This document shows, piece after piece, positions 1 to 16,635 of a DNA stretch of 16,855 nucleotides (position 1 is its first letter; every line of letters begins with the position of its first letter). The notes below the pieces were generated by a model. The model saw only the letters and a program-made list of their open reading frames with translations. It was not told the origin of the DNA and did no database searches. The translations under genes were made by a program, and so were the position numbers. Location: assembly GCA_023132075.1 (NCBI GenBank), contig JAGLYT010000007.1, forward strand, positions 1-16,855, read 5' to 3'. This DNA is from JAGLHV01 sp023132075 [NCBI: bacterium]. Lineage in GTDB: Bacteria > CBDUZB01 > JAGLHV01.

Positions 1-1490
1 TCTTCATTAATTTTTCCGGAAATTTCATTTAACATAATGGAAGCGAACCCTTTCATATTGGTCAATGGGGTGCGTAGTTCGTGAGAAATGAGGGAGATGA
101 ATTCCATTTTCATTTGTTCTAATTTTTTTTCTTTAGTAACATCGCTAAGTAATGTTACTATGCCTAATTTTTCTTCTCTATGATTTTTAACCCGAGAAAG
201 AGTAACTTTTAGATGTGTGTGTGGTGGTTGGTGTAATTTAATGTCTTTAGTTGTAGGAAAAGAACTGCCTATTTTAGAATATAATTCGGATAAATATAAA
301 TTTCTGAAATCCGTCCATTTTTCAATTTGGTTTTCCTGGGAATTGTCATTGAAAGAAAGTCCAATTATTTTTTCAGCGGTTGGATTAAGAAAAAATAAAT
401 TTCCGTTTTCGTCGGTCATAATTACACCCTCTGTCATACTTTTTATCATTGATTCCATTTTGCTTTTTTCTTCAGCCATGAGCGTTTCTATTTCTCTGGT
501 TCGCAAAAGCACTTTTTTTTCAAGCGAGACACTATATTCTTTAATTTCTTTCTCGGCTTCTCGCAGTTCCTCAACCAATTCTTTTATCGCTCGTAAATCT
601 CTGGCAATTCCAACAATACCTGTTATTTTACCTGATTCATTTTTCATTGTTGATGCATTAAAATTAACAGGTATTGCTTCATTTTTTTTAGTTAAAAAAA
701 CCAAATCACAATCCCGGGCGGCTCCTTTCTGAAATAAAATTTTTGATAGATTTTTGTCTAAAAAAGTTTTATCATTAAAAATAATGTTTACATTTTGTCC
801 TATAAGTTCTTCTTCTTTTTCATATTCTAACAGGTTTAAAGTTGCATAGTTGACTGTTTTTATTTTGTTATCAAGGTCTATCACAATCAAACAGTCCAGC
901 ATGCTCTCGAGGATATTAGAAATATAATCTTTACTTCTATGCAGTTCCTTGCTTTTTATTTTGAATTTGTTTTCGTAGTCTTTTTCCATGTCTACGACTT
1001 TTTTAAATAGAGTACTGACTATAAAAAATATGCTTATTTTTAGCAGCAGCCAACCAAAATGTACGACTTGTAAATTTTTTACCTGTGTAAGATGAAAACA
1101 AGCCAGAATAGTACTTACTGCTAAAGTGGCCAGCAGTAATGTCTTTTTGTTGCAAATTAAACTTATGGTAATTAAAGGGAAAATAAACATTATCCACAAG
1201 TTTGATTCATATCCCCCGGTATAATAAATTAATAGTGTAATAAGAAAAATATTGGAAAGGCCGATAAAAGTTTTACTTATTAATAATGCTTTGTTTCGAA
1301 GCAATGATTTGATGCTTAAAATATTAAAAAAAATGATTGTTAAGATTACTGAAAATACCTGGGGAAATATAGAAAGTTTTATGTCTTTTAAAATTAAAAG
1401 TAAGGGCCAGATAAATCCCAACAGGAGCCCCATATATTTATAGAGAATGTTTAATAAAGAGAAATCGTTTGGAGAATTATTGCTTTTCAT
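1..1490 (-). CDS. Membrane PAS-PAS sensor histidine kinase, 3' end cut off by window edge
   Basis: Reading down from the ATG at 1490, the frame stays open for 496 complete codons to the window edge. Residues about 11-165 hold six hydrophobic segments (roughly 11-34, 41-60, 72-90, 97-113, 117-132, 146-162), an integral-membrane sensor region of no family I recognise. A short charged linker leads to PAS 1 (about 187-300, ending GIVGIARDL), a coiled coil (300-345), PAS 2 (about 346-452, EGVIMTDENGNLFFLNP) and HisKA with the H-box SHELRTP, phospho-acceptor His470. The HATPase domain must lie beyond base 1. The ribosome binding site AAGGAGG sits inside the last codons of the preceding response regulator gene and the gap is 4 bp, so translation is probably coupled. 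The autokinase call is strong; the ligand is unknown. It is the distal gene of the four-gene minus-strand signalling operon. Confidence 0.9.
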   Translation of the reverse strand, partial: MKSNNSPNDFSLLNILYKYMGLLLGFIWPLLLILKDIKLSIFPQVFSVILTIIFFNILSIKSLLRNKALLISKTFIGLSNIFLITLLIYYTGGYESNLWIMFIFPLITISLICNKKTLLLATLAVSTILACFHLTQVKNLQVVHFGWLLLKISIFFIVSTLFKKVVDMEKDYENKFKIKSKELHRSKDYISNILESMLDCLIVIDLDNKIKTVNYATLNLLEYEKEEELIGQNVNIIFNDKTFLDKNLSKILFQKGAARDCDLVFLTKKNEAIPVNFNASTMKNESGKITGIVGIARDLRAIKELVEELREAEKEIKEYSVSLEKKVLLRTREIETLMAEEKSKMESMIKSMTEGVIMTDENGNLFFLNPTAEKIIGLSFNDNSQENQIEKWTDFRNLYLSELYSKIGSSFPTTKDIKLHQPPHTHLKVTLSRVKNHREEKLGIVTLLSDVTKEKKLEQMKMEFISLISHELRTPLTNMKGFASIMLNEISGKINE

Positions 1491-1494
1491 AAAT

Positions 1495-2103
1495 TCAAAC
1501 CTCCTTAATTGGGTTGGTTTTTTGTTGTGTGCAATTTGGGCAACAGAAACGGCATTTAAATTCTAATTTTTCGGAATCAGTTTGGGAAGTAAGTTGTAAA
1601 AGTAAAGAAGTATTACATCGACTACATTTAAAAGACATGGGTAAATTAGAATCTTTAGCTATTTTGGGAGCATCGAATAAAGATTCTTTTATTGCTATCC
1701 AATAAGAGGCGGTCTCTTTTTTTTCAGTGGTTTGGCTTAAAATTTGGTTTATTTTTTGTAGTAGTAAATTAGGGGTAGTGTGTATTTTGTTTAAATAATC
1801 ACTGGCACCCAGTTGAAAAGCTTTTTTTTTGTCTTCCGGGTATTCACGCATAGAAAAAACAATTGTGGGCATATTCTGGCATTCCGTTTTCTTTTTGATA
1901 TTCTCTAATAGAGTAAATCCATCCATTACCGGCATAACTAAGTCAAGAATAATCAGATCCGGCCTGTCTTCGTCAATAAGTTTCAAACATTCTGTTCCGT
2001 TGGAAGCGACGCGTACCTGAAATTTTTCAGCTCTTAACTTATCAGTATACAGCGAAACAAAATCCAATCTGTCTTCAACTACCAGGATTTTTTCTCTTTT
2101 CAT
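1495..2103 (-). CDS. Response regulator: REC domain with C-terminal zinc ribbon
   Basis: 202 residues. Residues 1-122 form a receiver domain: acidic pair E10/D11, phospho-acceptor Asp54 in LIILDLVMP, switch Ser84, and conserved Lys106, which is followed by Ile instead of the usual Pro. After a linker (123-157) comes a small cysteine-rich module with C160-x2-C163 and, about 20 residues later, C184-x2-C187 followed by C188-x2-C191, a zinc-ribbon pattern. There is no helix-turn-helix, enzyme or sigma-54 module, so the output is not a standard one. The ribbon could bind nucleic acid or protein; the sequence does not say which. The start codon overlaps the stop of the upstream gene (TAATG) and has GGGGAG about 5 nt upstream, which indicates coupled translation. 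It probably receives phosphate from one of the kinases of the same operon (inference). Confidence 0.88.
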   Translation of the reverse strand: MKREKILVVEDRLDFVSLYTDKLRAEKFQVRVASNGTECLKLIDEDRPDLIILDLVMPVMDGFTLLENIKKKTECQNMPTIVFSMREYPEDKKKAFQLGASDYLNKIHTTPNLLLQKINQILSQTTEKKETASYWIAIKESLFDAPKIAKDSNLPMSFKCSRCNTSLLLQLTSQTDSEKLEFKCRFCCPNCTQQKTNPIKEV

Positions 2104-3938
2104 TATTCTCCCCTTTTCTTTTTTAAGTTAGTTATAATTTTTTCTAATTTATTTAGTGTTTTTTCTTTGGCAAGTTCTTCTTTAATAATAAATCCCTGAA
2201 TTTGTTTGCTGGTAAGTGATTTATTTAAAAACAGGAACTTTTCATTGTTTAAGAGAACCAGGTGTATATTTTTTATTAAGGGGTCATTGCTTATTTCGGT
2301 TAGAAGGTTAAAGCTGACTTCTTTTAAGTTTATTAAATCTAAAAAAATAATATCCGGTTTTTCCTGATAAATTTTTTCTATTGCTTCTTGTTTGTTTTGC
2401 GAAGAAAGAACGATATGATTTTCATTTTCAAGGAAGTTTCCCAACAAATCAACAGTATGTCCATCGTTACTCAAAATCATGCTTTTTATTCTATTTGTTT
2501 GTTTTAGGGCGTCTAATTTTTTAAGTAATTGTGTTTTTTTTATCGGGTTTATCAGAAAATTTTTATTCTTATATGAAAAAGTTAATGGTTTCATTTTCGA
2601 TGAGGAAATAACGATAATTGGGGTAGAGGCGGTTTCGGGATTGTTTTTTAAATCTTTTAATATTGTTCCATGGTCATATTCTGCGGTCACTATATCCAAT
2701 ATAATAGCGAAAGGTGTAGTAGTAACTATTTGTTTTAATGTTTCTTTTTCCATTAAGCAACCGACAACTTGATATTGGGTTTTTTTGGTGAAATCACGAA
2801 TGCGGTTAATGACCGCCGGATTAACATCAATAACTATAAGATTTTTTTTTGTTTCTTTTTCTTGCCTTGACGGTTGGGAAGGAAAGGTAAAAATAAAATT
2901 AGAATCGTTATTGGAGATGCTTTCTATCTTGAAGGTTCCTCCTAAATATTCGGTTAAATTTTTAGCAAGGTTTAGATTTGTATCCATTTCGGTATATTTA
3001 AGGAGAGCGACATCATCGGCCGTTTTGGGGGGAGAAAAAATAAAGTTTTTCTGGAGATGTTTTGTCCTTAGGGGTCCTATGATAATTTCTATTGTTTTCT
3101 TATCGGTAGCATTTAAGATGGAAACAATGAGTTTTCTTTGGGAAGAGAATTTAATAGTATAATTTAATGTGTTGAGCAAGATTTGTTTTATATGCGATTT
3201 ATCACTGATAATAAAGGGTAAATTGGAGTCAATATATGTTTTGACAAGAATATTTTTTTCTTTTAATAATGGATCCGCATACGATATAATTTCTTCTACA
3301 ATATTTTTTAATTGAATCTTTTCCCATGAAAGAGCTGTTTTGTGCATAGCAATCCTGGATAAATCCAAAAGGTTATTAATCATCCGCAATAAGTTTTTAG
3401 AATTAATATTAATTTTTTTAAAAATTTGTTGCGGGGATGGTTCTTGTTTATCCCATTCGTTTAATAAAGAATTTGTATCGGTAATAATACTATTAATTGA
3501 TGTTTTTAAATTGTAATCCGTATCGGCAAAAGAGGGTATTTTTTTAAGAAATGGGATAGAGGTATCGGCTAATCTTTTGTTTATGCACTGTTCAACTGTT
3601 GTGTTAAGTTGGGAAAGATTAAAAGGTTTGCTTATATAATCAAAACTTCCTAAGCGCATTGCTTCTACAGCTGTTTCAATAGTTGCATATCCGGTAAGGA
3701 TAATAGAATCGGTTTTTATGTTATTTTTTTTAATTTGTTTTAATACTTCTATTCCGTTAAGTCCGGGCATTTTTAAATCAAGCAGAACCAGGTCGAAAAA
3801 GTTATTGGCTAACATTGTTAAACCTTCTTCTCCGTTTTTAGCTGATTCTACATAATAGGATTTTTGCCGAAGAAGTTTGCTGCAAAGATCTCGTATTTCG
3901 TATTCATCATCAACTATTAGAATATTTGCTTTATTCAT
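2103..3938 (-). CDS. REC-pseudo-histidine kinase-REC-REC protein
   Basis: 611 residues. REC1 (1-122) looks functional: acidic D10/D11, Asp54 in LVLLDLKMP, T82, K104-P105. Residues about 135-355 have the layout of a HisKA + HATPase core, but the H-box position reads DYNLKTSINS with Tyr142 where the histidine should be. The N-box keeps N256 in QILLNTLNY, while the G1 DxGxG and G2 GLGL motifs are absent (ETIL-type positions read KTIEIIIGPL and MDTNLNLAKN). REC2 (about 365-480) has D371 and D415 (AIILDIV), but the usual Lys-Pro reads NP (464-465). REC3 (about 484-605) has D492, D534 (IIFLDLIN) and K586. So it cannot autophosphorylate by the normal route and may instead be a multi-receiver scaffold or phosphate sink. 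The start overlaps the upstream kinase stop by 4 bp (ATGA), with AAAAGGA as ribosome binding site. Domain calls for REC2 and REC3 are less certain than REC1. Confidence 0.85.
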   Translation of the reverse strand: MNKANILIVDDEYEIRDLCSKLLRQKSYYVESAKNGEEGLTMLANNFFDLVLLDLKMPGLNGIEVLKQIKKNNIKTDSIILTGYATIETAVEAMRLGSFDYISKPFNLSQLNTTVEQCINKRLADTSIPFLKKIPSFADTDYNLKTSINSIITDTNSLLNEWDKQEPSPQQIFKKININSKNLLRMINNLLDLSRIAMHKTALSWEKIQLKNIVEEIISYADPLLKEKNILVKTYIDSNLPFIISDKSHIKQILLNTLNYTIKFSSQRKLIVSILNATDKKTIEIIIGPLRTKHLQKNFIFSPPKTADDVALLKYTEMDTNLNLAKNLTEYLGGTFKIESISNNDSNFIFTFPSQPSRQEKETKKNLIVIDVNPAVINRIRDFTKKTQYQVVGCLMEKETLKQIVTTTPFAIILDIVTAEYDHGTILKDLKNNPETASTPIIVISSSKMKPLTFSYKNKNFLINPIKKTQLLKKLDALKQTNRIKSMILSNDGHTVDLLGNFLENENHIVLSSQNKQEAIEKIYQEKPDIIFLDLINLKEVSFNLLTEISNDPLIKNIHLVLLNNEKFLFLNKSLTSKQIQGFIIKEELAKEKTLNKLEKIITNLKKKRGE

Positions 3939-5851
3939 AAGCTTTCCTTTTCCGTTTCTAACGGTAAAATTATAACGAATTTAGAGCCTTTTCCTTTTCC
4001 ATTACTTTTAGCCCGAATGTTTCCTTTATGTTTTTTTATAATTCCATAACTTACAGAAAGTCCCAGTCCTGTATTATTTCCAACTTCTTTAGTAGAAAAA
4101 AAGGGGTCAAATATTCTGGCTAAAGATTCTTTTTCTATCCCCATTCCTTGATCCTGAAAAGTAATAGTGATGTTTTTTTCTGATTGTTTATTATCAATTA
4201 ATTTGTTTTTTGATGAGGCGGTATTACTTATTTCGGTACTGATGGTCAAATTCCCTCCGCTAGGCATTGATTGTTGTGCGTTTACAATTAAGTTAAGAAA
4301 TACTTGTTGTATTTGAGGGGCGCTAAGTTTTAATTTAGGTAAATTTTTGGCATATTTTTTAACTACACGAATATTTTCAATGGTTAATTGGCGTTCATAT
4401 AAAGAAAGGGTTCTATTGATTATCTCATTAACATTTGTTGCTTGAAATTCAAACTCTTGCTGGCGGGAAAAACCTAATAAATTGGTTACAATACTTTTGC
4501 AACGTTGGGCAGACTGTTCTATTTTTTGTATTTCGGTATATCCCGGATTAGTTGGGGGTAATTGCATCAGGAGTAATTGGGCATTACCCATTACACTGGT
4601 TAAAGGATTATTGATTTCATGGGCCACACCTCCGGCCAGTTGTCCCAGAGTGACCATTTTATCTGCCTGAATTAACCGGAGTTGAAGTTGTTTTCTTTCG
4701 CTGATATCTTTGATTGTTACCAATATTTCCGTATTTTCGGTTTTTTTGTTTTTCATTGAACTAATTTGCAATTCAGCAGGGAATTTTTTACCATCTTTTT
4801 TCTTCATTAATACTTCCTGGGCATAAATTTTTTTTGTTATTTTAGGGTCAATGATTTTTTTTATTAGAGAAAAGATTTTTCTATCATCAGTAGATAATGC
4901 AGTTAATTTTTTCCCCAGCATTGTTTGTTTACTGTAATTAAATATTTTTTCTGCCGCTTCATTGCAGGAAGCAATAGTCGTATCCGGCTTTAGGCAAAAA
5001 ATAGCGTCCTGGATGCTGGCAAATAAATTTTCTAAATAATGTTTTGATTTTTTTATTTCCCCTTCCATTTTTTCCCGTTGGGTAATATCACGTATAATTG
5101 TTCTTATTCCGCTGATTTCTCCGTTTTGTTTTATCAACGAGGCATTGATTTCCACTATAATTTCTTTACCCTCTTTATTGGTTAATTTTGTTTTGAATCC
5201 GGAAACAGTGCCTTGTTCAATAGTTTTTCGTATAAAAGTGGGAATATTTTTCCGGACATCAGGGGAAATAAAGTGTTTAAGATTCATTTTAAGTATTTCA
5301 TTCTTAGAATAATGAAAAAATGAAATTGCTTGCTTATTGATAGTGGTGATTTTACCGGTACTATCTAAGGTGCAGATTAAATCGTTGGCATTTTCTACTA
5401 AATCTCTATATTTTTCTTCTGATTCTTCTAAACTTTTTTGTAGTTTGGCTTGTAATTTTTTTGTTTGAAAAGCAGTGATTGCTTTTTCTACGACTAAAGG
5501 CAGTATACTAAGATAATTAGTACTTTTGGTAATATAATCATAAGCACCTGATTTTATTGCGTTTACGGCTATTTTTTCATTTCCCTGTCCTGTAACAAAA
5601 ATAACCGGTAATTGATACATTTTTCTTAATTTGCTTAGTAATTCCAAACCATTTTCTTTTGGTAGATTATAATCCAAGAGTAATATATCAAAGTTATTTT
5701 GAGAAAGTAACTTTAAACATTCTGTGCCGGAATGAGCTATATTAATTTGATATTCAGGATTAGTACTGAGCAATTTATCTTTAGCTAATTGGGCGTGATC
5801 AGGGTTGTCATCCACTATTAAGATATTAAAAATCCCTTTTTTTGAAATCAT
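3935..5851 (-). CDS. REC-PAS-PAS hybrid sensor histidine kinase (soluble)
   Basis: 638 residues, no membrane segment. An N-terminal receiver (about 7-128) has D14/D15, Asp60 in ILLLDYNLP, T87 and K109 (followed by Ser, not Pro). Two PAS domains follow (about 143-258, ending TIIRDITQRE; about 270-386, ending VTIKDISERK). Then comes HisKA with VAHEINNPLTS, His411, and an intact HATPase: N-box N520/N524, G1 DQGMGI (567-572), F-box FDPFFSTK (581-588) and G2 TGLGLS (594-599). The H-box and ATPase are of the NtrB-like HPK4 type. An N-terminal REC means the kinase can be tuned by another kinase. First gene of the operon, about 115 nt downstream of a consensus promoter. The ATG at 5851 has only a weak, distant AGAAGG as ribosome binding site. 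It is the only operon member here with a complete, intact kinase core, so it is the best candidate donor for its neighbours' receivers (inference). Confidence 0.93.
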   Translation of the reverse strand: MISKKGIFNILIVDDNPDHAQLAKDKLLSTNPEYQINIAHSGTECLKLLSQNNFDILLLDYNLPKENGLELLSKLRKMYQLPVIFVTGQGNEKIAVNAIKSGAYDYITKSTNYLSILPLVVEKAITAFQTKKLQAKLQKSLEESEEKYRDLVENANDLICTLDSTGKITTINKQAISFFHYSKNEILKMNLKHFISPDVRKNIPTFIRKTIEQGTVSGFKTKLTNKEGKEIIVEINASLIKQNGEISGIRTIIRDITQREKMEGEIKKSKHYLENLFASIQDAIFCLKPDTTIASCNEAAEKIFNYSKQTMLGKKLTALSTDDRKIFSLIKKIIDPKITKKIYAQEVLMKKKDGKKFPAELQISSMKNKKTENTEILVTIKDISERKQLQLRLIQADKMVTLGQLAGGVAHEINNPLTSVMGNAQLLLMQLPPTNPGYTEIQKIEQSAQRCKSIVTNLLGFSRQQEFEFQATNVNEIINRTLSLYERQLTIENIRVVKKYAKNLPKLKLSAPQIQQVFLNLIVNAQQSMPSGGNLTISTEISNTASSKNKLIDNKQSEKNITITFQDQGMGIEKESLARIFDPFFSTKEVGNNTGLGLSVSYGIIKKHKGNIRAKSNGKGKGSKFVIILPLETEKESL

Positions 5852-5971: not shown

Positions 5972-6000
5972 ATTATAATAACACAAATAGTCCTTGTCAA
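5972..6000 (-). promoter_or_regulatory. Consensus sigma-70 promoter of the minus-strand signalling operon
   Basis: On the minus strand the -35 box TTGACA (6000-5995) and the -10 box TATAAT (5977-5972) both match consensus exactly and are 17 bp apart. Transcription would start near 5965, giving a leader of about 115 nt before the ATG at 5851. It faces away from the plus-strand genes. A perfect promoter suggests strong, possibly constitutive transcription unless an operator overlaps it; I see no clear operator palindrome. Confidence 0.85.
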
Positions 6001-6342: not shown

Positions 6343-7017
6343 ATGTTACAATTTGAGCAATTTTCCGTTAAGATTCTTTTTTGTACTTCAGAACCCGACG
6401 AAAAAATGTTGCTCTGGAGTTTTTTGCCCGACGGAGTGATTTTGGATACAGTGGGAACGGGGGAAGAAACACTTGAAAGATTCAAAGAAAACCAATACAG
6501 TTTGATTTTATTTGATACCCAAATAGGTGAAAAAGATGAATTTTTGGTAGCTAAAAAAATACGGGAGCATGAATTTATTTCTGATTTGAAAGCGATGCCC
6601 ATCGTAGGAATAATTTCCAGCAAAGAAAAGGAAATATCATCGGAGTTTAATGATTATCTGTTTCGTCCTTTTCAACAGGAAGAAGTTTTTAAACTTATTA
6701 CTAAATATATTTCTTTGCCTTCTTCATTAGGGAAAGTAATTACTGCGGACATAGATATTAAAGATTTTGTTCCTGAATTTCTGGCAAACAGAAAAACAGA
6801 CAGCCTTTTGATCATTGATAATTTAAAGAAGAACAATTTTGTAAAAATTAAGGAATTGGGGCATAAGATGGTTGGTTCGGGAAAGCTTTATGGGTTTGAA
6901 CGGATTAGTAAAATAGGTTACTTGTTGGAAAGGGAAGCAAAAAACGAAGAGGCAGGACCAATAGAAAAGTTATCCAGGGAGTTAATAACTTATCTTAATC
7001 AGGTGGAGGTTAGGTAA
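6343..7017 (+). CDS. REC-HPt phosphotransfer protein
   Basis: 224 residues. Residues 8-125 form a receiver-like domain with E17/D19 as the acidic pair, Asp58 in LILFDTQ and S92/S93 in the switch strand, but Arg108-Pro109 replaces the usual Lys-Pro. Residues about 135-222 form an all-helical HPt domain containing the signature GHKMVGSGKLYGF with His174 as phospho-acceptor; this resembles the canonical H-K-x-x-G-S/A-x pattern of HPt proteins. Together they make an internal phosphorelay module (Asp to His or the reverse). The ribosome binding site AGGGGGAT is about 5-6 nt before the ATG. The next gene, a receiver-fused assembly ATPase, begins 4 bp after this stop, and its GGAGG lies in the last codons of this gene. 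That makes the ATPase receivers the likely partners of His174 (inference). The Lys-to-Arg change may alter receiver signalling. Confidence 0.88.
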   Translation: MLQFEQFSVKILFCTSEPDEKMLLWSFLPDGVILDTVGTGEETLERFKENQYSLILFDTQIGEKDEFLVAKKIREHEFISDLKAMPIVGIISSKEKEISSEFNDYLFRPFQQEEVFKLITKYISLPSSLGKVITADIDIKDFVPEFLANRKTDSLLIIDNLKKNNFVKIKELGHKMVGSGKLYGFERISKIGYLLEREAKNEEAGPIEKLSRELITYLNQVEVR

Positions 7018-7021
7018 TTTT

Positions 7022-9565
7022 ATGCGACCGAAAGTATTGGTTATTGATGATGACGTGGAAGTTTTAAAAATATTTAAACGGTATCTGGAAAATGAAAATT
7101 ATACAATTGATATCATTGATAACAGTCTTAAGGCACTGGAAACAGTCGGAAAAGTAAAACCGGATTTAATTCTGCTTGATGTCCGAATGCCGGAAATGGA
7201 TGGATATGAGGTTTGTTCGAAAATAAAAGAGGATAAAAATCTTACCGGTATTCCGGTGATTTTTATCAGTGCCCTGGATGAAGAGCAGGATAAGAAAAAA
7301 GCGTTTTCCTATGGTGCGGTGGATTATATAGTAAAACCGCCCAGCAAAAAGGAAATATTAGATAAAATAAGGAAGCACTTAAAGAATTTGACAGCGATGC
7401 AGGAAAGAGAGGAAATTGTTGGGTTAAAAGAGGTGAGATTTCCCGGGCAATTTAAAGAGTTTAAAAAAGTTTTAGAAAATAAATTGAATTTAAACGCAGA
7501 ACAAAAGAAAATATTATTAACGACAAAAGTAGCAGTAATAAATTCACTGGTGGAAGTTTTAAATATTTCCAGTGCTCAATTATCCCAGTACATTGCTGAG
7601 TTTTTAAAATTAAAATATATGCCTTATCTTGATCCGGAACTTTTACAAACCAATATTCTTCCCAATTCTTTTTGTCGAAAATATCACGTAGTAGCAATAA
7701 GTGATCTAATTCAAACGAAAAATGCAGAGAATAAGGTTTTTGCCTTGAGCAATCCGTTTAATTGGGAATTAATAGAGTTTTTAAGTAAGGTAAGCGGAAA
7801 TAATAGGATAGTGATTACTGAGCCTGAAAATATCGATTCCTTTTTTCAGGAAAAAGGATCAAATGATAAAATAACCGTTGATATTATTTCCCAAACCGCT
7901 TCTCAGAAAGAAATAGAAAACCACCCGGTAAAATATATAACCAACCATATTATTTGTAAAGCGATAAGCCAGAGAGCAAGTGATATACATATTGAGCCAA
8001 AAGAAGTAGAAACGAGTATTCGCTTTCGTGTAGACGGCGATATGCAACAGGCTTTTTTTTTGAAGGATAAGACGGCATTACGAATGATTGCCCGTTTTAA
8101 AGTACTTGCTGATTTGGATATTGCTGAAAGACGGAAACCACAGGATGGTTCTTTTGCTATATCTGTGGATAATAGAAATTTTAGATTAAGGGTAGCTACT
8201 ACTAATACAGCTTACGGGGAAAGTGTTATTTTGCGTTTGTTAGAGCCTAAGGCTAAACCAAAGGCATTGGATCTTTTGGGAATGACCCCCCAACAGGAAA
8301 AAACTATGCGCGAATTTTCCCGGCAAAGCAGCGGGCTGATTTTATTAGTCGGACCGACCGGTTCAGGAAAAACTACTACCATTTATAGTCTCCTGAGCCA
8401 GATAGACTGTAAAAGCAGGAGTTTAATTTCAGTGGAGGATCCCATTGAGTATACTATTCCCGATGCCAATCAACAACAGGTAAACGAAAAAATCGGAGTT
8501 ACTTTTAATATACTTTTAAGGTCAGCAATGCGTCAGGATCCGGATATACTTTATATAGGAGAAATGAGAGATCAATTTTCCAGTTCCGTAGCTATGCAGG
8601 CAGCTGGTACCGGTCATCTGGCGATTAGTACTATGCATTCGGCTAATGCGACTACAGCAGTTTTTCGTCTGGAAACATTAGAAGTTTCCCGGACTACAAT
8701 GGCGGATTCGATTTTGGGTATAATAGCTCAAAAATTACTTAAAGTTCTTTGTCCTCATTGCCGGGAGGTATTCCCGATTACGAAAGAAGAGAGAAGGCTT
8801 TTGTCAAAATATACCACTGATTTTCCGGAAAAAGTTGCTCATCCGGCAGGTTGTCCCCAGTGTAACTACTCTGGTTTTTATGGAAGAGAAGCTGTTTATG
8901 AAATTTTAAAATTTGATTCGGAGATATCCAAAATGGTGCGGGACAATGTTCCTGTTGCCGGGATAAGGAGTTTTGCTAAGCAGCGGGGTGATTATTTAAT
9001 TGGTGACCATGCTTTACAAAAAGTGAAGGATTTGAAGTTTTCAGTAAAACAGGTTTGTGGAACGATATTAATAGAAGAGGTACAAATTAATGCTTTGGAT
9101 AAAAAAACAATCCGGAGTGTTTCGGAAGAAAAACCGGAAAAAGAACTAGTGGAAAGCAAAATAGCGGAAGAGAAAAAATCAACGGAGAAGAGACATATAT
9201 TACTGGTGGAAGATGATAGCGATATACGCCGATTGGTAGCCAGCTTGCTGGAAAACGGGGGGTATTCTGTTACCGTGGCGGAAGACGGTATAGAGGCTCT
9301 CCTTCGTATGGGTAAAGTAAATTTTGAATTGATTCTTTCTGATGTGGATATGCCTAATTTAGACGGATTTAAGTTATTGGAAATGAAAAACCAGAAAGGA
9401 ATTAAAAGTCCTGTAGTGTTTTTGACCTCAAGAGCAAATACGGAAGATGAAAAAAGGGGACTCAAAATGGGTGCTACCGATTATATCAAAAAGCCATTTG
9501 ATAAAGAAACATTATTGTTAAAAATTAATCGTATCTTTGAAATATTAACGACTTCTGCCAAATAG
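7022..9565 (+). CDS. Receiver-flanked GspE/PilB-type assembly ATPase (REC-T2SSE_N-ATPase-REC)
   Basis: 847 residues, against about 500-570 for ordinary GspE/PilB. REC1 is residues 1-125 (D10/D11, Asp53 in LILLDVRMP, S83, K105-P106). About 135-280 resembles the GspE/MshE N-terminal domain (LPNSFCRKYHVV...ALSNPFNWELIEFL). The motor core follows: RASDIHIEP (318-326), Asp box RFRVDGD (334-340), Walker A GPTGSGKTT (444-452), Walker B DPDILYIGEMRD (506-517), His box TGHLAISTMHSANA (530-543), and the tetracysteine zinc module C577-x2-C580 / C611-x2-C614. After a charged linker (690-722), REC2 (724-845) has D731/D732, Asp774 in LILSDVDMP, T802 and K824-P825. Both receivers and all ATPase motifs look intact. 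It would hydrolyse ATP at the inner membrane to drive pilus or pseudopilus assembly, with phosphorylation as direct control. The tetracysteine supports an assembly (not retraction) motor. Confidence 0.93.
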   Translation: MRPKVLVIDDDVEVLKIFKRYLENENYTIDIIDNSLKALETVGKVKPDLILLDVRMPEMDGYEVCSKIKEDKNLTGIPVIFISALDEEQDKKKAFSYGAVDYIVKPPSKKEILDKIRKHLKNLTAMQEREEIVGLKEVRFPGQFKEFKKVLENKLNLNAEQKKILLTTKVAVINSLVEVLNISSAQLSQYIAEFLKLKYMPYLDPELLQTNILPNSFCRKYHVVAISDLIQTKNAENKVFALSNPFNWELIEFLSKVSGNNRIVITEPENIDSFFQEKGSNDKITVDIISQTASQKEIENHPVKYITNHIICKAISQRASDIHIEPKEVETSIRFRVDGDMQQAFFLKDKTALRMIARFKVLADLDIAERRKPQDGSFAISVDNRNFRLRVATTNTAYGESVILRLLEPKAKPKALDLLGMTPQQEKTMREFSRQSSGLILLVGPTGSGKTTTIYSLLSQIDCKSRSLISVEDPIEYTIPDANQQQVNEKIGVTFNILLRSAMRQDPDILYIGEMRDQFSSSVAMQAAGTGHLAISTMHSANATTAVFRLETLEVSRTTMADSILGIIAQKLLKVLCPHCREVFPITKEERRLLSKYTTDFPEKVAHPAGCPQCNYSGFYGREAVYEILKFDSEISKMVRDNVPVAGIRSFAKQRGDYLIGDHALQKVKDLKFSVKQVCGTILIEEVQINALDKKTIRSVSEEKPEKELVESKIAEEKKSTEKRHILLVEDDSDIRRLVASLLENGGYSVTVAEDGIEALLRMGKVNFELILSDVDMPNLDGFKLLEMKNQKGIKSPVVFLTSRANTEDEKRGLKMGATDYIKKPFDKETLLLKINRIFEILTTSAK

Positions 9566-9715
9566 ACATTTAGGAAGAAATATTATGAATGCTGTGTATC
9601 GTAATTAATATAGTTATTTAATTTATCTACCTTATGGGTTAGCGGTTAATCAAGGGAAAAAAAATTATTTTAGATAAATCTGTTGAAATATTTAAAAACG
9701 GAGGGAGTTGAAAAG

Positions 9716-10264
9716 ATGAGTAACGAAATAATTTCAAATTTAAAATGTGTTAAGTGTAATAAAGAATTTAACAAAAGAGAATTGAATTTAATCAATGGAA
9801 AACGTTACTGCAGTCAATGTGCGATTGAATTTGCTAATGAATTTGTCAAGACAGAAAGCGATTTATTGAATGAAAGAGCAAAAGAAACTTCTGAGGTTAG
9901 AAGTAAAAAATGGAAAACCTTGATTATTTGTTTGTTTGTTATTTGTATGGGAATTAATGCAGTCTTATTACCCCGAATGATTAAATCATTAAAAGGAAAT
10001 AAAGTAATTCGTAAAGGGGCCATTAAAACTGATGTTAAAACAGATAAGTGTATTAAGAATCTTTGGCAGATATCCAGAATGATTCAGGAGGATAGTTTGT
10101 CGGAAATGGCTTTAGTTTGTCCGGTTAGCAAAAAACCGTATATTGTACAGCAAAAAGACGAGAATACAATAGTTTTCTGTCCTAATCCGAATCGACACGG
10201 GAAACGCGGTTATCGGGCAATTAGAGTGAGTAGGTTCTCCCCCATTCCGGAGGTACTGGAGTAA
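9716..10264 (+). CDS. Zinc-ribbon single-pass membrane protein with pilin-like C-terminus
   Basis: 182 residues from the ATG at 9716, chosen because GGAGGG (9700-9705) precedes it; a TTG at 9683 in the same frame has no ribosome binding site. N-terminal zinc ribbon: C11-x2-C14 and C32-x2-C35. One transmembrane helix at about 68-86 after a basic stretch (RSKKWK) places the ribbon in the cytoplasm and residues 90-182 outside. The outer part contains CPVSKKPYIV and FCPNPNRHGKRGY, a Cys-Pro...Cys-Pro pattern reminiscent of the C-terminal loop of small type II pseudopilins, but no class III signal peptide is present. The stop abuts the pseudopilin start (TAAATG), so the two are coupled and probably work together. 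I do not recognise a named family; a minor pilin-complex component or assembly adaptor is an inference. The 150 bp upstream shows no convincing terminator or promoter. Confidence 0.8.
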   Translation: MSNEIISNLKCVKCNKEFNKRELNLINGKRYCSQCAIEFANEFVKTESDLLNERAKETSEVRSKKWKTLIICLFVICMGINAVLLPRMIKSLKGNKVIRKGAIKTDVKTDKCIKNLWQISRMIQEDSLSEMALVCPVSKKPYIVQQKDENTIVFCPNPNRHGKRGYRAIRVSRFSPIPEVLE

Positions 10265-11146
10265 ATGATTAGTCATAAAAATAGAGGGTTTACTTTAATT
10301 GAGCTTGTAATGGTTGTAATTATAATATTGACAATGGCTACTGTTGGCGTGATTAAATATGATGAGGCAGACCGGAAAGTACGGGTTACCCAATGTTTGG
10401 TGAATCGGGTGGCGATTGAAGATGCGGAACGGCGTTATTATTATACTAAGGATGAGCCCTGTTTAAACATTTCCAAACTGGTAAAGGAAGGTTTCCTGGA
10501 TAAGATGCCTACCTGTGCCGGCGGAGGCCAATATATCTGGATAAGTACTTCCACTCTTTCTTCCTCTTATCCTATGGTGGGATGTTCAGTTCATTATTGG
10601 TATTTTTGGGAGGGTGATTCTAATTCGGAAACAGAACTGTTTTCATCTGATTTTGATAATATGGATTATCTTACGCCGCTCAGAGGAGATTGGGTTATTC
10701 AGGACGGGGCACTTAGACCTACGGGGAAAGGGGAAGAGCATCGGCTTGTTTTCGGAAGCCTTGGTTGGACAGATTATACAGTAGAGATGGAGGCAACTTT
10801 GGATGAGGGAATGGGATATGGAATTTATTATCGCAGTGATGGGAAAGCAAATATAACCGGATATTGTTTTCAATATGATCTCGGAGATGCATATTCTTTT
10901 CTGGTAAGAAAGGTATTTAACGGCAGAGAACAGAGCCCTTTTCAACGGGTAAGTATGCCGGAGGGGTTTTCTATTTACAGTCAATCCCATACTATTTCCA
11001 TTGGGGTTGATGGAAATAGTCATCAAATCAGTGTTGATGGGCAGATAATCATGGAATTCGATGATGATTCTTTTTCCTCAGGAGCAACAGGGTTTAGGTC
11101 CTGGGGGCATTCGGAAGTGAGTTTTGACGAGGTTAGGGTTTATTAA
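10265..11146 (+). CDS. Class III pseudopilin fused to LamG/DUF1080-like beta-sandwich
   Basis: 293 residues. The N-terminus MISHKNRG|FTLIEL is a textbook prepilin peptidase site: Gly8, Phe9 at mature +1, Glu13 at +5, followed by a hydrophobic helix to about residue 30. Residues 35-110 look like a short pseudopilin body with C44, C66, C84 and C107. From about 125 to 293 a beta-rich domain begins with SSDFDNMDYLTPLRGDWVIQDG and continues with WTDYTVEMEATLD, GYGIYYRSDG, YSFLVRK and HTISIGVDGNSHQISVDGQ; this layout matches concanavalin-like LamG/3-keto-disaccharide hydrolase (DUF1080) folds. The fold call rests on pattern only, and no catalytic residues can be asserted. The cleaved, methylated pilin would be assembled by a GspE-type motor and display the sandwich outside, perhaps to bind sugar or protein. 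GGAGG lies at 10249-10253; translation is coupled to the upstream gene. Confidence 0.87.
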   Translation: MISHKNRGFTLIELVMVVIIILTMATVGVIKYDEADRKVRVTQCLVNRVAIEDAERRYYYTKDEPCLNISKLVKEGFLDKMPTCAGGGQYIWISTSTLSSSYPMVGCSVHYWYFWEGDSNSETELFSSDFDNMDYLTPLRGDWVIQDGALRPTGKGEEHRLVFGSLGWTDYTVEMEATLDEGMGYGIYYRSDGKANITGYCFQYDLGDAYSFLVRKVFNGREQSPFQRVSMPEGFSIYSQSHTISIGVDGNSHQISVDGQIIMEFDDDSFSSGATGFRSWGHSEVSFDEVRVY

Positions 11147-11245: not shown

Positions 11246-13492
11246 ATGAAAATAGCTAACAAAATAAGTTTGTCTTTTTTAATAACTGCTGTGATTTTAA
11301 GCAGTATAAGTATGGTTATTGCTTTTGGCAAAACTAAAAGAGATATGAAAAAAATGGTTTTTGACCATTTAATCACTATAATTAACTCAAGAGTGACTCT
11401 TATTGAAACATTTCTAAAATCACAGAAAAGGGCAACCAACCAATTAGCAGAGAGTATTGTTTTAAAAGATTTGTTGTTAGCTAAAAAAAATGATAAAAAT
11501 TATCAATCCCGATATAGAAAAGCTCAACGCAGACTAAAAAATACTGCCCGGAGTGATGAATCTGTCAGCGATATTTTATTATTAGATAAAAAAAGAACAG
11601 TTATTGCTGCCACTGATGAGAATTATATAGGAAAAGATGAAAATAATAATTCATGTTTTTTAAATGCAAGGGGAGAAGGTGTTTTTACTAAAGATGTTTG
11701 TGTGTCCGGAACTAAAAAAATACCCTATCTTTCTTTTTCTACGCCGGTTTTAGATGAAGAAAAAACTAATTTTTTAGGGATATTGATAATAAGGATTTTA
11801 ATGCGGGAAATAAATGAGATTACCACTAACCAAATGAATTTAGGGAAAACAGGGGAAGTATATTTAGTAAACAAAAACGGATTTATAATTAGTTCTTCCC
11901 GTTTTATGGAAGATACTTTTCTTAAACTAAAGGTTGAGACTGAAGGGGTAAAAAAGTGTCTGGAAGATATAGAAGAATTTGGAGAGAAAGAACATGAGCA
12001 TAAAGTTTTTACCTATAAAAATTATCAGGGGAGTTTAGTTTTAGGGGTGCATAAGCATATTGAGCAGTTATCCTGGGGACTTATAACGGAAATAGGAGAA
12101 AAAGAAGCCCTGGCTTTTATTTATGAACAGAAACCGGTTCTTTTAAAAATAAGTTTTTTTGTTATTACAGGTTCTTGGTTGTGTGGGATATTTGTTGCCG
12201 GATTGATTATTCGTCCAGTTCATGCCTTGCATAAAGGTACGGAAAGAATAGGAGAAGGGGATGTGGATTTTAAAGTTGGAACAAAGATAAACGATGAAGT
12301 TGGACAACTTTCCCGGGCTTTTGATCGGATGAGAATAAATTTAAAAAAATCAACTATCTCAAGAGAAAAACTTTATCAGGAAATTGCTCAACGCAGGGAG
12401 ATAGAAGAAAAACTAAGATTATTTTCTCATGCGGTGGAGAGTGCGGTAGAAGGTATGGCTATAGCTAATCTTTCAGGGGAGATTATTTATGTGAATGAGG
12501 CATTTATTAGGCTATTTGGTTATTCAAAAGAAGAAATGATAGGAGAAAAAATTAATTCTTTTTATTTCAAAGAAGGAATCTATAAATCACAGCAAGTAAC
12601 AAAGACAATAATAAGAGGGAATTGGCAGGGGGAATTAATTGCCGGAAGAAAGGATGGCACTTGTTTTCCGATAGCGATATACGCATCGGTGGTAAAAGAT
12701 AATAAAGGGAGAATTATTGGTCAGATGGCATCTCATGTGGATATCACCCGTCGTAGGGAAACGGAAGAAAAAATGAAAGAAGCAGTAAAGATAAAATCGG
12801 ATTTTTTATCGATGGTTTCGCATGAGTTAAGAACTCCGCTTACGGCAATAAAAGAGGGAATAAGCATAGTACTGGATGGGTCCGCCGGAAAAATAAACAC
12901 TGATCAGGAGGATTTTTTAGCTACGGCAAAAAGGAATGTAGACAGATTGCACCGCTTAATTAATCAAGTACTTGATTTTTCTAAATTGGAAGCCAGAAAA
13001 TCTGAGTTCAGAATGGAGGAAAACGACCTTAATCAAGCGATAACAGAAATAGTAAAAATGCAGCAGCCGGTAGCTATAGACAAAGGCCTTTATGTTAGAT
13101 TGGAGTTAGGTAATAATATGGATAAAATTTTATTTGATAAAGATAAAATCATTCAGGTGTTGATCAATTTAACTAATAATGCCTTTAAACATACGAACAA
13201 AGGGGGAATCACGGTAAGCAGCAAAAAGGACAATGACGGTAAATTTATCCGGGTGGGGATTAAAGATACCGGTGAAGGAATCGAAGAAAAAGAATTAGGC
13301 AGATTATTTGAGCAATTTCAACAGATAGGGAAAAAATTCAGAAAACCGGGCAGTACAGGACTTGGTTTAGCTATTTCTAAAGAAATAATTACCGGACATA
13401 AAGGGAAGATTTGGGCTGAGTCCCAGCATAATGTTGGTTCTGAATTTATTTTTACCCTGCCCATTATTAAGGAGAGAAGGGGTAAAGGATAA
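11246..13492 (+). CDS. Cache-HAMP-PAS membrane sensor histidine kinase
   Basis: 748 residues. TM1 (about 8-27) and TM2 (about 301-323) bracket a periplasmic domain (28-300) with double-Cache features, including SDILLLDKKRTVIAAT, a central FSTPVLDEEKTNFLGILIIRI strand region around 164-184, and TGEVYLVNKNGFIISSS. HAMP follows at about 322-375, then a PAS domain (392-503, ending ASHVDITRRRETEEK). HisKA carries VSHELRTPL with His526. The HATPase is complete: N-box N641/N645 (QVLINLTNNAFKHT), G1 DTGEGI (674-679), G2 GSTGLGLA (702-709). The kinase has no receiver of its own, so it must hand phosphate to a separate protein such as REC-HPt or the receiver-flanked ATPase (inference). Start supported by AAAAGGAT about 6-8 nt upstream. 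The extracellular Cache domain suggests a small-molecule ligand, unidentified. Confidence 0.93.
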   Translation: MKIANKISLSFLITAVILSSISMVIAFGKTKRDMKKMVFDHLITIINSRVTLIETFLKSQKRATNQLAESIVLKDLLLAKKNDKNYQSRYRKAQRRLKNTARSDESVSDILLLDKKRTVIAATDENYIGKDENNNSCFLNARGEGVFTKDVCVSGTKKIPYLSFSTPVLDEEKTNFLGILIIRILMREINEITTNQMNLGKTGEVYLVNKNGFIISSSRFMEDTFLKLKVETEGVKKCLEDIEEFGEKEHEHKVFTYKNYQGSLVLGVHKHIEQLSWGLITEIGEKEALAFIYEQKPVLLKISFFVITGSWLCGIFVAGLIIRPVHALHKGTERIGEGDVDFKVGTKINDEVGQLSRAFDRMRINLKKSTISREKLYQEIAQRREIEEKLRLFSHAVESAVEGMAIANLSGEIIYVNEAFIRLFGYSKEEMIGEKINSFYFKEGIYKSQQVTKTIIRGNWQGELIAGRKDGTCFPIAIYASVVKDNKGRIIGQMASHVDITRRRETEEKMKEAVKIKSDFLSMVSHELRTPLTAIKEGISIVLDGSAGKINTDQEDFLATAKRNVDRLHRLINQVLDFSKLEARKSEFRMEENDLNQAITEIVKMQQPVAIDKGLYVRLELGNNMDKILFDKDKIIQVLINLTNNAFKHTNKGGITVSSKKDNDGKFIRVGIKDTGEGIEEKELGRLFEQFQQIGKKFRKPGSTGLGLAISKEIITGHKGKIWAESQHNVGSEFIFTLPIIKERRGKG

Positions 13493-13872: not shown

Positions 13873-13905
13873 GACATTACCATAAAGAAAAGAGAGATTT
13901 TTATG
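13873..13905 (+). repeat. Conserved leader of FIST gene 1 (direct repeat with 15391-15423)
   Basis: The 33 bases from GACATTACC to the ATG are identical in front of both FIST genes, spaced 1518 bp apart. They include the purine-rich AAAGAGAGA ribosome binding region. They mark the left edge of the duplicated unit; further upstream the two spacers differ apart from the hairpin repeat. Confidence 0.8.
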
Positions 13906-15117
13906 CCTACTAAATTTGTGACGGGAGTAAGTTTTGGGGAAGATAGTTTTGGGGAAGATAGTTTTCTGGTAGGTAAGGACGTTGCCGGTAAGGCGTTGGA
14001 AAAAATGAAAGGAGAAAAGATTCATCTTTCGATTGTATTTTGTTCTTCTGAGTATAATTATGTAGAGGTTATAAAAGGAATAAAAGAAATTACCCAAAAT
14101 GCTCCTCTTATTGGTTGTTCCAGTGCCGGTGAATTTACCGAAGAGCGAGTTGGTAAAAAAAGCGTATGTTGTGCTCTAATATCTTCTAATGACCATAAAT
14201 TTTTTCTCGGGTGTGGAAAAGAATTTAAAGGAAATGAAATAGAAGCAGTAAAACAAGCTACCGGAAACTTCTCTCGGTCAGTAAATGATTATCCTTATCT
14301 TTCCTGTCTGCAGTTGATTGATGGATTGACAGGGAAAGGAGAGGAAGTCACATTAGCGGTGAGTAGTGTTTTGGGATCTCTGGTGAGATTAATAGGAGGA
14401 GCAGCCGGAGATGATTTAAAATTTAAAGAAACAAAGGTATTTATGGATAATCAAATAAATTCTAATACCATTGCTTTGTGTTTAATTGCTTCTAAAATTC
14501 CTGTAGGAATAGGAGTAAAGCACGGACATACGCCGCTTAGTCCTGCTTTAAATGTAACCAAATCTGCAGGCTGTATTCTTTACGAATTAAATAGCGAGCC
14601 TGCATTCGAAGTTTGGAAAAAGTATACAAGAGAAAGAGCTAAAGAGCAATTTGATATAAATGTGGATAAATTGTCCGATTCTACGGAAATAGGAAGTTAT
14701 CTTATTAAATATGAGGTAGGGGTACTTACAGGGATAGACTATAAAATTAGAATTCCTTTTTCTGCTAATCCCGATGGGTCTCTTAATCTTGTTTGTCCTA
14801 TTTCTGAGGATACAATAATAAAAATCATGGAAAGTTCAAAAGATGCTCAGATTAATTCTGCAAGAGAGGCCGCGAGGTTAGCTGTTGCTTCATTAAGAGG
14901 AGCTAAGATTGCCGGTGCGATTATCTTTGATTGTGTCTGTCGTGCCCTTATTTTAAAAGATGAATTTTATCAGGTGATTGAAGCTATTAAAGAAGTCATT
15001 GGAAAAGATGTTCCCCTTATTGGACTGGAAACATACGGAGAAATAGCTATGGAATTAGGACAACTAAGTGGCTTTCATAATACTACTACTACTATTTTGT
15101 TAATTCCGGAAAGATAA
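13903..15117 (+). CDS. FIST-domain sensor protein, copy 1
   Basis: 404 residues, soluble, no signal peptide. The FIST_N part (about 20-225) contains LIGCSSAGEFTEE (69-81) and IGGAAGDDLKF (164-174). The FIST_C part (about 225-400) contains IFDCVCRALIL (341-351), ETYGEIAMELG (376-386) and the closing HNTTTTILLI. FIST proteins are intracellular ligand sensors; some, named NosP, bind haem and nitric oxide and regulate a neighbouring histidine kinase. No enzymatic motif is visible and the protein has no fused output domain, so it would signal by contact, perhaps with the Cache kinase 410 bp upstream (inference). Residues 10-19 are a doubled SFGED. The second FIST gene downstream is a close paralogue: by hand alignment 3 of 103 residues differ at the N-terminus, 29 of 57 in residues 104-160 and 45 of 244 afterwards. 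Confidence 0.9.
   Translation: MPTKFVTGVSFGEDSFGEDSFLVGKDVAGKALEKMKGEKIHLSIVFCSSEYNYVEVIKGIKEITQNAPLIGCSSAGEFTEERVGKKSVCCALISSNDHKFFLGCGKEFKGNEIEAVKQATGNFSRSVNDYPYLSCLQLIDGLTGKGEEVTLAVSSVLGSLVRLIGGAAGDDLKFKETKVFMDNQINSNTIALCLIASKIPVGIGVKHGHTPLSPALNVTKSAGCILYELNSEPAFEVWKKYTRERAKEQFDINVDKLSDSTEIGSYLIKYEVGVLTGIDYKIRIPFSANPDGSLNLVCPISEDTIIKIMESSKDAQINSAREAARLAVASLRGAKIAGAIIFDCVCRALILKDEFYQVIEAIKEVIGKDVPLIGLETYGEIAMELGQLSGFHNTTTTILLIPER
13931..13960 (+). repeat. 15-bp in-frame tandem repeat in FIST gene 1
   Basis: GTTTTGGGGAAGATA occurs twice head to tail (13931-13945, 13946-13960), followed by a partial GTTTT. It encodes SFGED twice near the N-terminus. The same duplication exists in FIST gene 2 (15449-15478), so it probably predates the gene duplication or was spread by gene conversion. 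Confidence 0.85.
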
Positions 15118-15390: not shown

Positions 15391-15423
15391 GACATTACCA
15401 TAAAGAAAAGAGAGATTTTTATG
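15391..15423 (+). repeat. Conserved leader of FIST gene 2 (direct repeat with 13873-13905)
   Basis: Identical over 33 bases to the leader of FIST gene 1, including the ATG. Identity continues into the coding region with few changes for about 300 bases. Confidence 0.8.
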
Positions 15424-16635
15424 CCTACTAAATTTGTGACGGGAGTAAGTTTTGGGGAAGATAGTTTTGGGGAAGATAGTTTTTTGGTAGGAAAGGATGT
15501 TGCCGGTAAGGCGTTGGAAAAAATGAAAGGAGAAAAGATTCATCTTACAATTGTATTTTGTTCTTCTGAGTATAATTATGCAGAGGTTATAAAAGGAGTA
15601 AAAGAAATTACTCAAAATGCCCCTCTTATCGGTTGTTCCAGTGCCGGTGAATTTACCGAAGAGCGAGTTGGTAAAAAAAGCGTATGTTGTGCTTTAATAT
15701 CTTCTAATGACCATAAATTTTTTCTTGGGCATGAAAATCAACTTGAAAAAAAAGGAAGAGAGGCAATAAAACAGGCTGCCGGGAAATTTCCTGAGGCAGT
15801 AAATAATTATCCTCATCTTTGTTGTATAGAGCTTATAGACGGATTAGTTAAAGAAGGAGAAGATTTAACTTTAGCTGTAAATAGTATTATGGGTTCTCTT
15901 GTAAGATTAATTGGGGGAGCAGCCGGGGATGATTTAAAATTTAAAGAAACAAGGGTTTTTATGGATAACCAAATAAATTCCGAAGCCATTACACTATGTT
16001 TAATGGCTTCGGAAATTCCTGTAGGAATGGGAATAAAACACGGACATAAGCCATGGAGTCCTGCTTTGAATGTGACTAAATCCGAAGGATGTATTCTTTA
16101 TGAATTAAATAACAAGCCTGCATTCGAAGTTTGGAAAAAGTATACAAGAGAAAGAGCTAAAGAGCAATTTGATATAGATGTGGACAAATTGTCCGATTCT
16201 ACGGAAGAAGGAAGTTATCTTATTAAATATGAAGCAGGGTTGCTTACAGGGATGGACTATAAAATTAGAGTTCCTCTCTCTGTTAATCCGGATGGGTCGT
16301 TAAACTTTGGGTGCCCTATTCCTGAGGATACAATAATAAAAATCATGGAAAGTTCAAAAGATGCTCAGATTGATTCTGCAAGAGAGGCCGCACAATTAGC
16401 GGTTGATTCGTTAAGAGGGGCTAAAGTTGCCGGGGCACTTATCTTTGATTGTGCTTGCAGGGGTCTTATTTTAGGGGACGATTTTCCTAAAGCAATTAAA
16501 GCGATTGGAGAAGTTATCGGGGAAGATGTTCCCTTTATTGGATTTGAAACATACGGGGAAATATTTATGGAATTAGGGCAATTAAGTGGTCTTCATCACA
16601 CGACTACTACTGTCTTGTTAATTCCGGAAAGATAA
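15421..16635 (+). CDS. FIST-domain sensor protein, copy 2
   Basis: 404 residues, the same length as copy 1, so every change between them is a substitution or a balanced indel. It retains the LIGCSSAGEFTEE, IGGAAGDDLKF, IFDCACRGLIL, ETYGEIFMELG and HHTTTTVLLI motifs of FIST_N and FIST_C. It differs from copy 1 mainly at residues 104-160 (for example GHENQLEKKGREAIKQAAG against GCGKEFKGNEIEAVKQATG). Within FIST_C, long stretches such as PAFEVWKKYTRERAKEQFD are unchanged. Both frames are intact, so both copies seem to be kept under selection. A shared KHGH (206-209) is a possible metal or haem contact but this is a guess. Its own leader copy suggests separate translation; whether it has its own promoter is unclear. 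Confidence 0.9.
   Translation: MPTKFVTGVSFGEDSFGEDSFLVGKDVAGKALEKMKGEKIHLTIVFCSSEYNYAEVIKGVKEITQNAPLIGCSSAGEFTEERVGKKSVCCALISSNDHKFFLGHENQLEKKGREAIKQAAGKFPEAVNNYPHLCCIELIDGLVKEGEDLTLAVNSIMGSLVRLIGGAAGDDLKFKETRVFMDNQINSEAITLCLMASEIPVGMGIKHGHKPWSPALNVTKSEGCILYELNNKPAFEVWKKYTRERAKEQFDIDVDKLSDSTEEGSYLIKYEAGLLTGMDYKIRVPLSVNPDGSLNFGCPIPEDTIIKIMESSKDAQIDSAREAAQLAVDSLRGAKVAGALIFDCACRGLILGDDFPKAIKAIGEVIGEDVPFIGFETYGEIFMELGQLSGLHHTTTTVLLIPER
15449..15478 (+). repeat. 15-bp in-frame tandem repeat in FIST gene 2
   Basis: GTTTTGGGGAAGATA twice (15449-15463, 15464-15478), identical to the pair in FIST gene 1, again encoding a doubled SFGED. Confidence 0.85.

Follow-up and report, generated by a model that had tools for sequence, protein, structure and literature searches.

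A family of assembly ATPases with receiver domains at both ends and a linked HPt protein, possibly a phosphorelay-controlled pilus motor

The window, which is the whole stretch of 16,855 nucleotides analysed here, encodes a pilus-type assembly ATPase placed between two receiver domains. This raised the question of whether such a protein is an accidental fusion or a conserved type of motor, and from where a phosphate would reach it. In the available parts of the cited literature, control of pilus motors lies with c-di-GMP or with receivers that are proteins of their own. In a multi-phylum family with a phosphorelay ending on the motor chain itself, the hexameric assembly ATPase would carry a switch open to direct assay, and such a family would also offer a way into the surface behaviour of little-known lineages. 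The strongest clue was found in the gene adjoining the motor, which encodes an HPt protein and was absent from an earlier note on this DNA.

Motor protein of the window

All GspE/PilB motor motifs named in the earlier note were found: Walker A (G444-T452 with K450), Walker B (D506-D517 with E514), the His box (H532/H539) and the zinc tetracysteine (Cys 577/580/611/614). With the required motor residues and the Pfam match present, the protein belongs to the GspE/PilB-type assembly ATPases (PF00437), and among its sequence relatives with known structures are GspE 1p9r and PilB 5zfr. As PilB or GspE proper it scored far under every NCBIfam equivalog cut-off compared (GspE 385.7 vs. 630.25, PilB 349.5 vs. 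675.65 and TfpB 355 vs. 850).

The two terminal receivers described in the same note were confirmed residue by residue. The REC1 residues D9/D10, D53, S83 and K105-P106 and the REC2 residues D731/D732, D774, T802 and K824-P825 are all in place, and both domains thus carry the acidic pair, phospho-Asp, Thr/Ser and Lys that define response regulators. Pfam reported Response_reg as two stretches with 191.7 bits in total, residues 5-117 scoring better. The proposed order REC-T2SSE_N-T2SSE-REC held as an order of blocks, but the part read as T2SSE_N is a weak MshEN match lacking the c-di-GMP motif (Table 1).

In an AlphaFold model built from a 5-sequence alignment, strands and helices alternate in both terminal blocks, with block pLDDT of 76-85 for residues 1-120 and 71-86 for residues 721-840. 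The whole-motor model was discarded as evidence on domain arrangement (mean pLDDT 60.7, pTM 0.26, five sequences).

The genome of the window (1.87 Mb, 389 contigs, 86.71% complete) contained six further PF00437 matches, so the window protein is an additional motor. We read the six as PilB and PilT on one contig (C57), two Tad-type ATPases (C2 and C112) and two more PilT-like ATPases (C93 and C268).

Table 1. Features of the window around the double-receiver motor
Feature	Position	Strand	Basis
Motor ORF, REC-MshEN-like-T2SSE-REC, 847 aa	7022..9565	+	ORF translation, Pfam, residue check
REC1, phospho-Asp D53 (7178-7180)	7034..7372	+	Pfam Response_reg, residues 5-117; residues read off
Degenerate MshEN-like domain without c-di-GMP motif	7628..7852	+	Pfam MshEN, residues 203-277, 29.5 bits (cut-off 23.1)
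T2SSE motor domain with Walker A, Asp box, Walker B, His box, tetracysteine	7919..9055	+	Pfam T2SSE, residues 300-678, 356.8 bits; PF00437 at same place
REC2, phospho-Asp D774 (9341-9343)	9197..9544	+	Response_reg stretch, residues ~723-841
Pseudo-receiver + HPt protein, 224 aa	6343..7017	+	Stop codon 4 nt before motor ATG
HPt domain, phospho-His H174 (6862-6864)	about 6754-7011	+	HPt profile, conserved His, AlphaFold helices
Zinc-ribbon, single-TM (Zn-TM) protein	9683..10264	+	Homologues beside motor in relatives; LIM below cut-off (Pfam)
Type IV pilin or pseudopilin with 3keto-disac_hyd C-terminal domain	10265..11146	+	Pfam N_methyl 24.2 bits (cut-off 21.2), PF06439 38.3 bits (cut-off 26.8)
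dCache-HAMP-PAS histidine kinase, candidate relay input	11246..13492	+	Pfam
Divergent REC-PAS-PAS histidine kinase, candidate relay input	3935..5851	-	Pfam
Three REC stretches + HisKA match, candidate relay input	2103..3938	-	Pfam

Distribution and phylogeny of the family

The search for the same architecture that the earlier note had asked for showed that it recurs. The same genus holds a full-length relative with 77% identity (L009), and the third genome examined from the phylum gave no relative at E 1e-110. Through a pattern scan of named contigs, four full-length relatives were found among the matches listed (80 loci): L014 from an Elusimicrobia bin, and L015, L016 and L019 from Candidatus Fermentibacteraceae, Candidatus Sabulitectum and Deltaproteobacteria bins. 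Two other listed loci (L017 and L018) are canonical motors, and the remaining loci among the 80 gave no motor match at E 1e-40. A six-member profile at E 1e-150 matched 12 of 345 genomes in the phylum of the Deltaproteobacteria bin, 20 of 42 in that of the Fermentibacteraceae bin and 17 of 294 in that of the Elusimicrobia bin, counts which still contain three divergent loci later set aside (L151, L159 and L196). Among 18 assorted genomes of other groups none matched at E 1e-130, in a sample without positive control where most genomes had candidates only partly scored.

At 780 bits or more, the family comprises 48 unique members: the window motor, L009, and 10, 20 and 16 members from the phyla of the Deltaproteobacteria, Fermentibacteraceae and Elusimicrobia bins, respectively. 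Left out of these counts are duplicates (L160, L161), one split locus (L185) and five divergent loci below 780 bits (L151, L159, L196, L197 and L198). The four blocks REC, MshEN-like, T2SSE and REC were detected in 44 of the 48; REC1 went undetected in L153, L193 and L194 and REC2 in L189, and REC2 is shortened in L158, L171 and L183. An architecture recurring across dozens of genomes is more than chance. Every member keeps K450, E514, H532, H539 and the four Cys (window numbering; 48/48).

When 62 motor domains, from which Tad and PilT sequences were left out, were placed in a midpoint-rooted tree, the 48 members formed one clade with support 0.925, rising to 0.99 when the REC-motor L196 is included. 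The 13 other sequences fell apart from it; nine of them lack a receiver and four carry one (L151, L159, one of L198, and L099, which is the motor of L197).

Two motors with a C-terminal receiver only were observed in one Elusimicrobia genome (G003; L197 809-3001 and L198 4601-6247). Near the full-length Elusimicrobia motor lies a shorter second REC-MshEN-like-partial T2SSE frame of 429 aa (L014 6675-7964), in a region where a genome search showed two stops.

Conservation of the receivers and of the MshEN-like domain

REC2 is strongly conserved: the acidic pair was found in 47 of 47 readable members, the Asp in 44/44, Thr or Ser in 45/45 and the Lys in 43/45, the two lacking it being L158 and L189, where REC2 is broken or absent. 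The REC1 Asp is kept in 37 of 48 members and lost in ten (L172-L179, L193 and L194), and L153 misses the REC1 domain. All ten members without the REC1 Asp keep the upstream HPt. Considering this loss together with the invariant REC2 Asp, the switch that the motor cannot do without is probably the C-terminal receiver, and some sub-lineages would have a REC1 that is expendable or reduced to a pseudo-receiver. Separate roles for the two receivers, as the earlier note had suggested, are therefore not supported for the family in general; in the window itself both receivers are intact, so that two roles may exist there. The up to twelve receivers per ring and the split between docking and catalysis put forward in that note would be conjectural.

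The c-di-GMP motif RLGxx(L/V/I)(L/V/I)xxG... was found in 0 of 48 members by its full or shortened pattern, both of which are strict: on 10 control loci, with two of the genes entering twice, the shortened pattern was positive six times and the full one once, and L018 was missed, though its repeats look MshEN-like by eye.

HPt protein upstream of the motor

The gene upstream of the window motor gave no report with Pfam Hpt, and its Response_reg match (26.5 bits) was under the cut-off of 30.2. Its counterpart in the same genus (L009) matched Pfam Hpt below the cut-off, with 17.7 bits and E 0.0042. With a profile seeded by HPt sequences from outside the genus, the window protein scored 79.3 bits (E 2e-23). 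H174 is invariant in all 24 aligned upstream proteins, and the phospho-His in 39/39 of a larger set. By its family-profile match with a phospho-His, we assign the predicted protein as an HPt protein. AlphaFold placed four helices across residues 139-220, with block pLDDT of 81-96 for 141-220. Through Foldseek with the REC-HPt model, the HPt structures 1sr2, 1yvi, 3myf and 1wn0 had the highest probabilities among the matches listed (0.80-0.94); no match had E below 0.001, and the rows with the best E values were unrelated proteins.

In 42 of the 48 members an HPt domain is encoded immediately upstream of the motor in the same orientation. Adjacency was looked for within 200 nt, and the two coding regions overlap by at most about 29 nt or lie up to 162 nt apart. 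Two more members (L187 and L188) are natural REC-HPt-REC-MshEN-T2SSE-REC fusions with the HPt at the N terminus. The four members without a same-strand adjacent HPt are L014, L169, L189 and L181, the last having one adjacent on the other strand. From the 42, a selection of 24 upstream proteins, mainly stand-alone ones, was given to Pfam; 23 of them matched Hpt with E no higher than 0.01, the sole miss being the window's own. The Hpt match stood above the cut-off in both fusions and also in L015 and in L016. Scores with our own HPt profile are partly circular, because 38 matches outside the genus seeded it.

Among the ORFs of the family loci, this profile gave 52 HPt matches of at least 15 bits, 46 of them adjacent or fused by script with the duplicates L160 and L161 counted. 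As for the other six, L192 was adjacent after start correction, L151 and L181 lay beside the motor on the opposite strand, L159 lay two genes upstream, and those in L157 and L174 were second copies. As controls, 37 loci of other ATPases and platforms, 151 kb with short flanks and some duplicates, one locus being the motor-REC L099, gave no HPt at E 10. In L157, the chain that contains the second HPt domain also shows weak zinc-ribbon matches, which stay below cut-off.

The sub-lineage L172-L179 combines a degenerate REC1 with an apparently classical-type HPt at the same upstream place. By eye (L173, L176 and L178 inspected) the HPt there is of another, classical type, and the others scored 36-45 bits vs. 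at least 79 elsewhere.

The earlier note had proposed that phosphorylation acts directly on the motor. The HPt adjacent on the same strand or fused in 44 of 48 members, the REC-HPt-REC-motor-REC fusions and the lack of any c-di-GMP motif by our patterns make this likelier, and the HPt linkage across lineages suggests that a phosphorylation relay switches the pilus motor directly. We also compared HPt and receiver distance matrices by rank correlation given the motor. For 39 of the 44 linked pairs REC1 reached 0.47 and REC2 -0.10, values that would count against REC2 as the main HPt partner but did not persist: without the sub-lineage of classical HPt (32 pairs) they were -0.11 and 0.11, and for members with an intact REC1 Asp (30 pairs) -0.02 and 0.11, so that the comparison favours neither receiver.

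Downstream genes and platform

The order HPt, motor, Zn-TM protein and pilin is common to the window, L009 and four genomes of the phylum of the Deltaproteobacteria bin (L149, L150, L152 and L155). A homologue of the Zn-TM protein adjoins the motor in L149 (39% identity, E 2e-43) and L150 (37%, E 5e-40), and the protein was recognised by eye in L009, L152 and L155. DZR_2 on the L149 protein was below cut-off. At the same position, L166 contains a TM protein without similarity to that of the window.

Only a minority of the family has a Zn-TM protein and a pilin after the motor. By pattern search, a pilin signature was found within 2.5 kb of the motor in 11 of 48 members and in none of the other 37, some of whose loci stop at contig ends and one of which (L014) holds a divergent pilin gene missed by the pattern. 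PF06439, which we take to be a lectin-like fold, was above cut-off in the pilins of the window, L153 and L157, below cut-off in those of L009 and L014, and without match in those of L149, L150 and L166.

No PF00482 platform match was found on the window's contig. Elsewhere in the genome, PF00482 matched two halves of one protein beside PilB/PilT (C57) and two proteins per Tad locus. Because this leaves only one non-Tad platform protein, the T4P platform probably serves the additional motor as well; at the completeness of this genome, a second platform may be missing. PilC-like proteins numbered one each in G001, G054 and G383, three in G016 and at least three in G003. Since the last two genomes bear the motor, platform sharing need not be general.

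Proposed mechanism and alternatives

With moderate confidence, and judging from sequence, we consider that the window motor is one member of a conserved GspE/PilB-type ATPase family which would be fed by an HPt protein and build a pilus or pseudopilus on signal through an existing platform. A sensor kinase would pass phosphate to the co-encoded HPt protein, which would phosphorylate the motor at the C-terminal receiver and perhaps also at the N-terminal one where it is intact. Phosphorylation may then alter how active the hexamer is or how it docks on the T4P-type platform already present in the cell, and assembly of a pilin, in the window probably the one encoded nearby, would thus await the signal. 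Going further, we might speculate, at slightly less than even confidence, that the loci represent an unnamed pilus module spanning phyla. The assembly motor would be the end point of its phosphorelay (HPt and REC-motor-REC, partly with a Zn-ribbon membrane protein and a pilin, some with PF06439), and on a signal the module would commandeer the ordinary T4P platform.

Another explanation is that the receivers govern where the motor docks (pole, scaffold or choice of platform) and not catalysis, phosphorylation driving receiver dimerisation or partner binding. We regard it as rather unlikely, with several observations in its favour. The linker before REC2 differs in length among relatives. According to the accessible parts of the reports, PilB is delocalised in P. 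aeruginosa on loss of PilG phosphorylation (PMC12632253), and in Synechocystis work a two-hybrid assay showed binding between PilT2 and a phosphomimic form of Rre6 (PMC7656254).

The motor scaffold could also be a signalling hub or phosphate sink that powers no pilus, as there is no dedicated platform gene. The contig without PF00482 and the 37 members without a pilin pattern nearby would agree with this, but the catalytic and zinc residues checked are kept in all 48 members, which is unexpected for a dead scaffold, and six loci have genes for a Zn-TM protein and a pilin downstream of the motor; we consider such a hub improbable. An ordinary PilB or GspE to which receivers were fused by accident and without particular significance is hardly credible, for although MshEN-REC proteins have been mentioned in general terms (PMC5013675, in the part available), the family has one architecture in one clade across several phyla, an invariant REC2 Asp and HPt linkage, and the window motor scores far under the NCBIfam equivalog cut-offs of PilB and GspE.

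Comparison with known systems

Like canonical PilB, GspE and MshE, the window motor contains a T2SSE domain with Walker A and B, Asp and His boxes and tetracysteine. Unlike them, it has receivers at both ends, an HPt next door and an MshEN-like part without the c-di-GMP motif. The Tad pilus protein CpaE/TadZ, a MinD/ParA-class ATPase with a pseudo-receiver and not an assembly motor, resembles the window motor in having a receiver-like domain in a pilus ATPase-class protein. One Tad-type motor was observed fused to an N-terminal ParA/MinD-like domain (L003 391-2583; CbiA, 31.8 bits), with no such Pfam match in the similar L004.

Phosphorylated receivers are described, in the portions available, as acting on T4P motors in the Pil-Chp system of P. 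aeruginosa (PilG/PilH with PilB; PMC12632253) and in the Rre6-PilT2 pair of Synechocystis (PMC7656254). The receivers in both are separate proteins, whereas those of the window family are part of the motor chain. MshEN is known to occur with receivers, and Bdellovibrio Bd2402 is named as an MshEN-containing response regulator in the part seen of PMC5013675; according to the same part, Bd2402 binds c-di-GMP, whereas the window family lacks the motif and in it a motor and second receiver follow. The literature searched, covered as listings and excerpts, held no account of a REC-MshEN-T2SSE-REC architecture or family, and an earlier mention is possible.

Kinases and other genes of the window

Kinases stand on both sides of the motor in the window, and we regard those flanking it as candidate inputs to the relay. 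Another kinase (3-1490, minus strand) runs off the window end and has a weak PilS-like transmembrane match (19.7 bits, cut-off 27). Ahead of the divergent kinase cluster, the sigma-70 consensus is matched exactly at 5972-6000 (minus strand), a site which is only suggestive because 26 promoter-like sites were found vs. 18.8 in shuffles. Towards the other end of the window, two tandem FIST/FIST_C proteins (13903-15117 and 15421-16635) share 81% identity and are possible ligand sensors for the neighbouring kinases.
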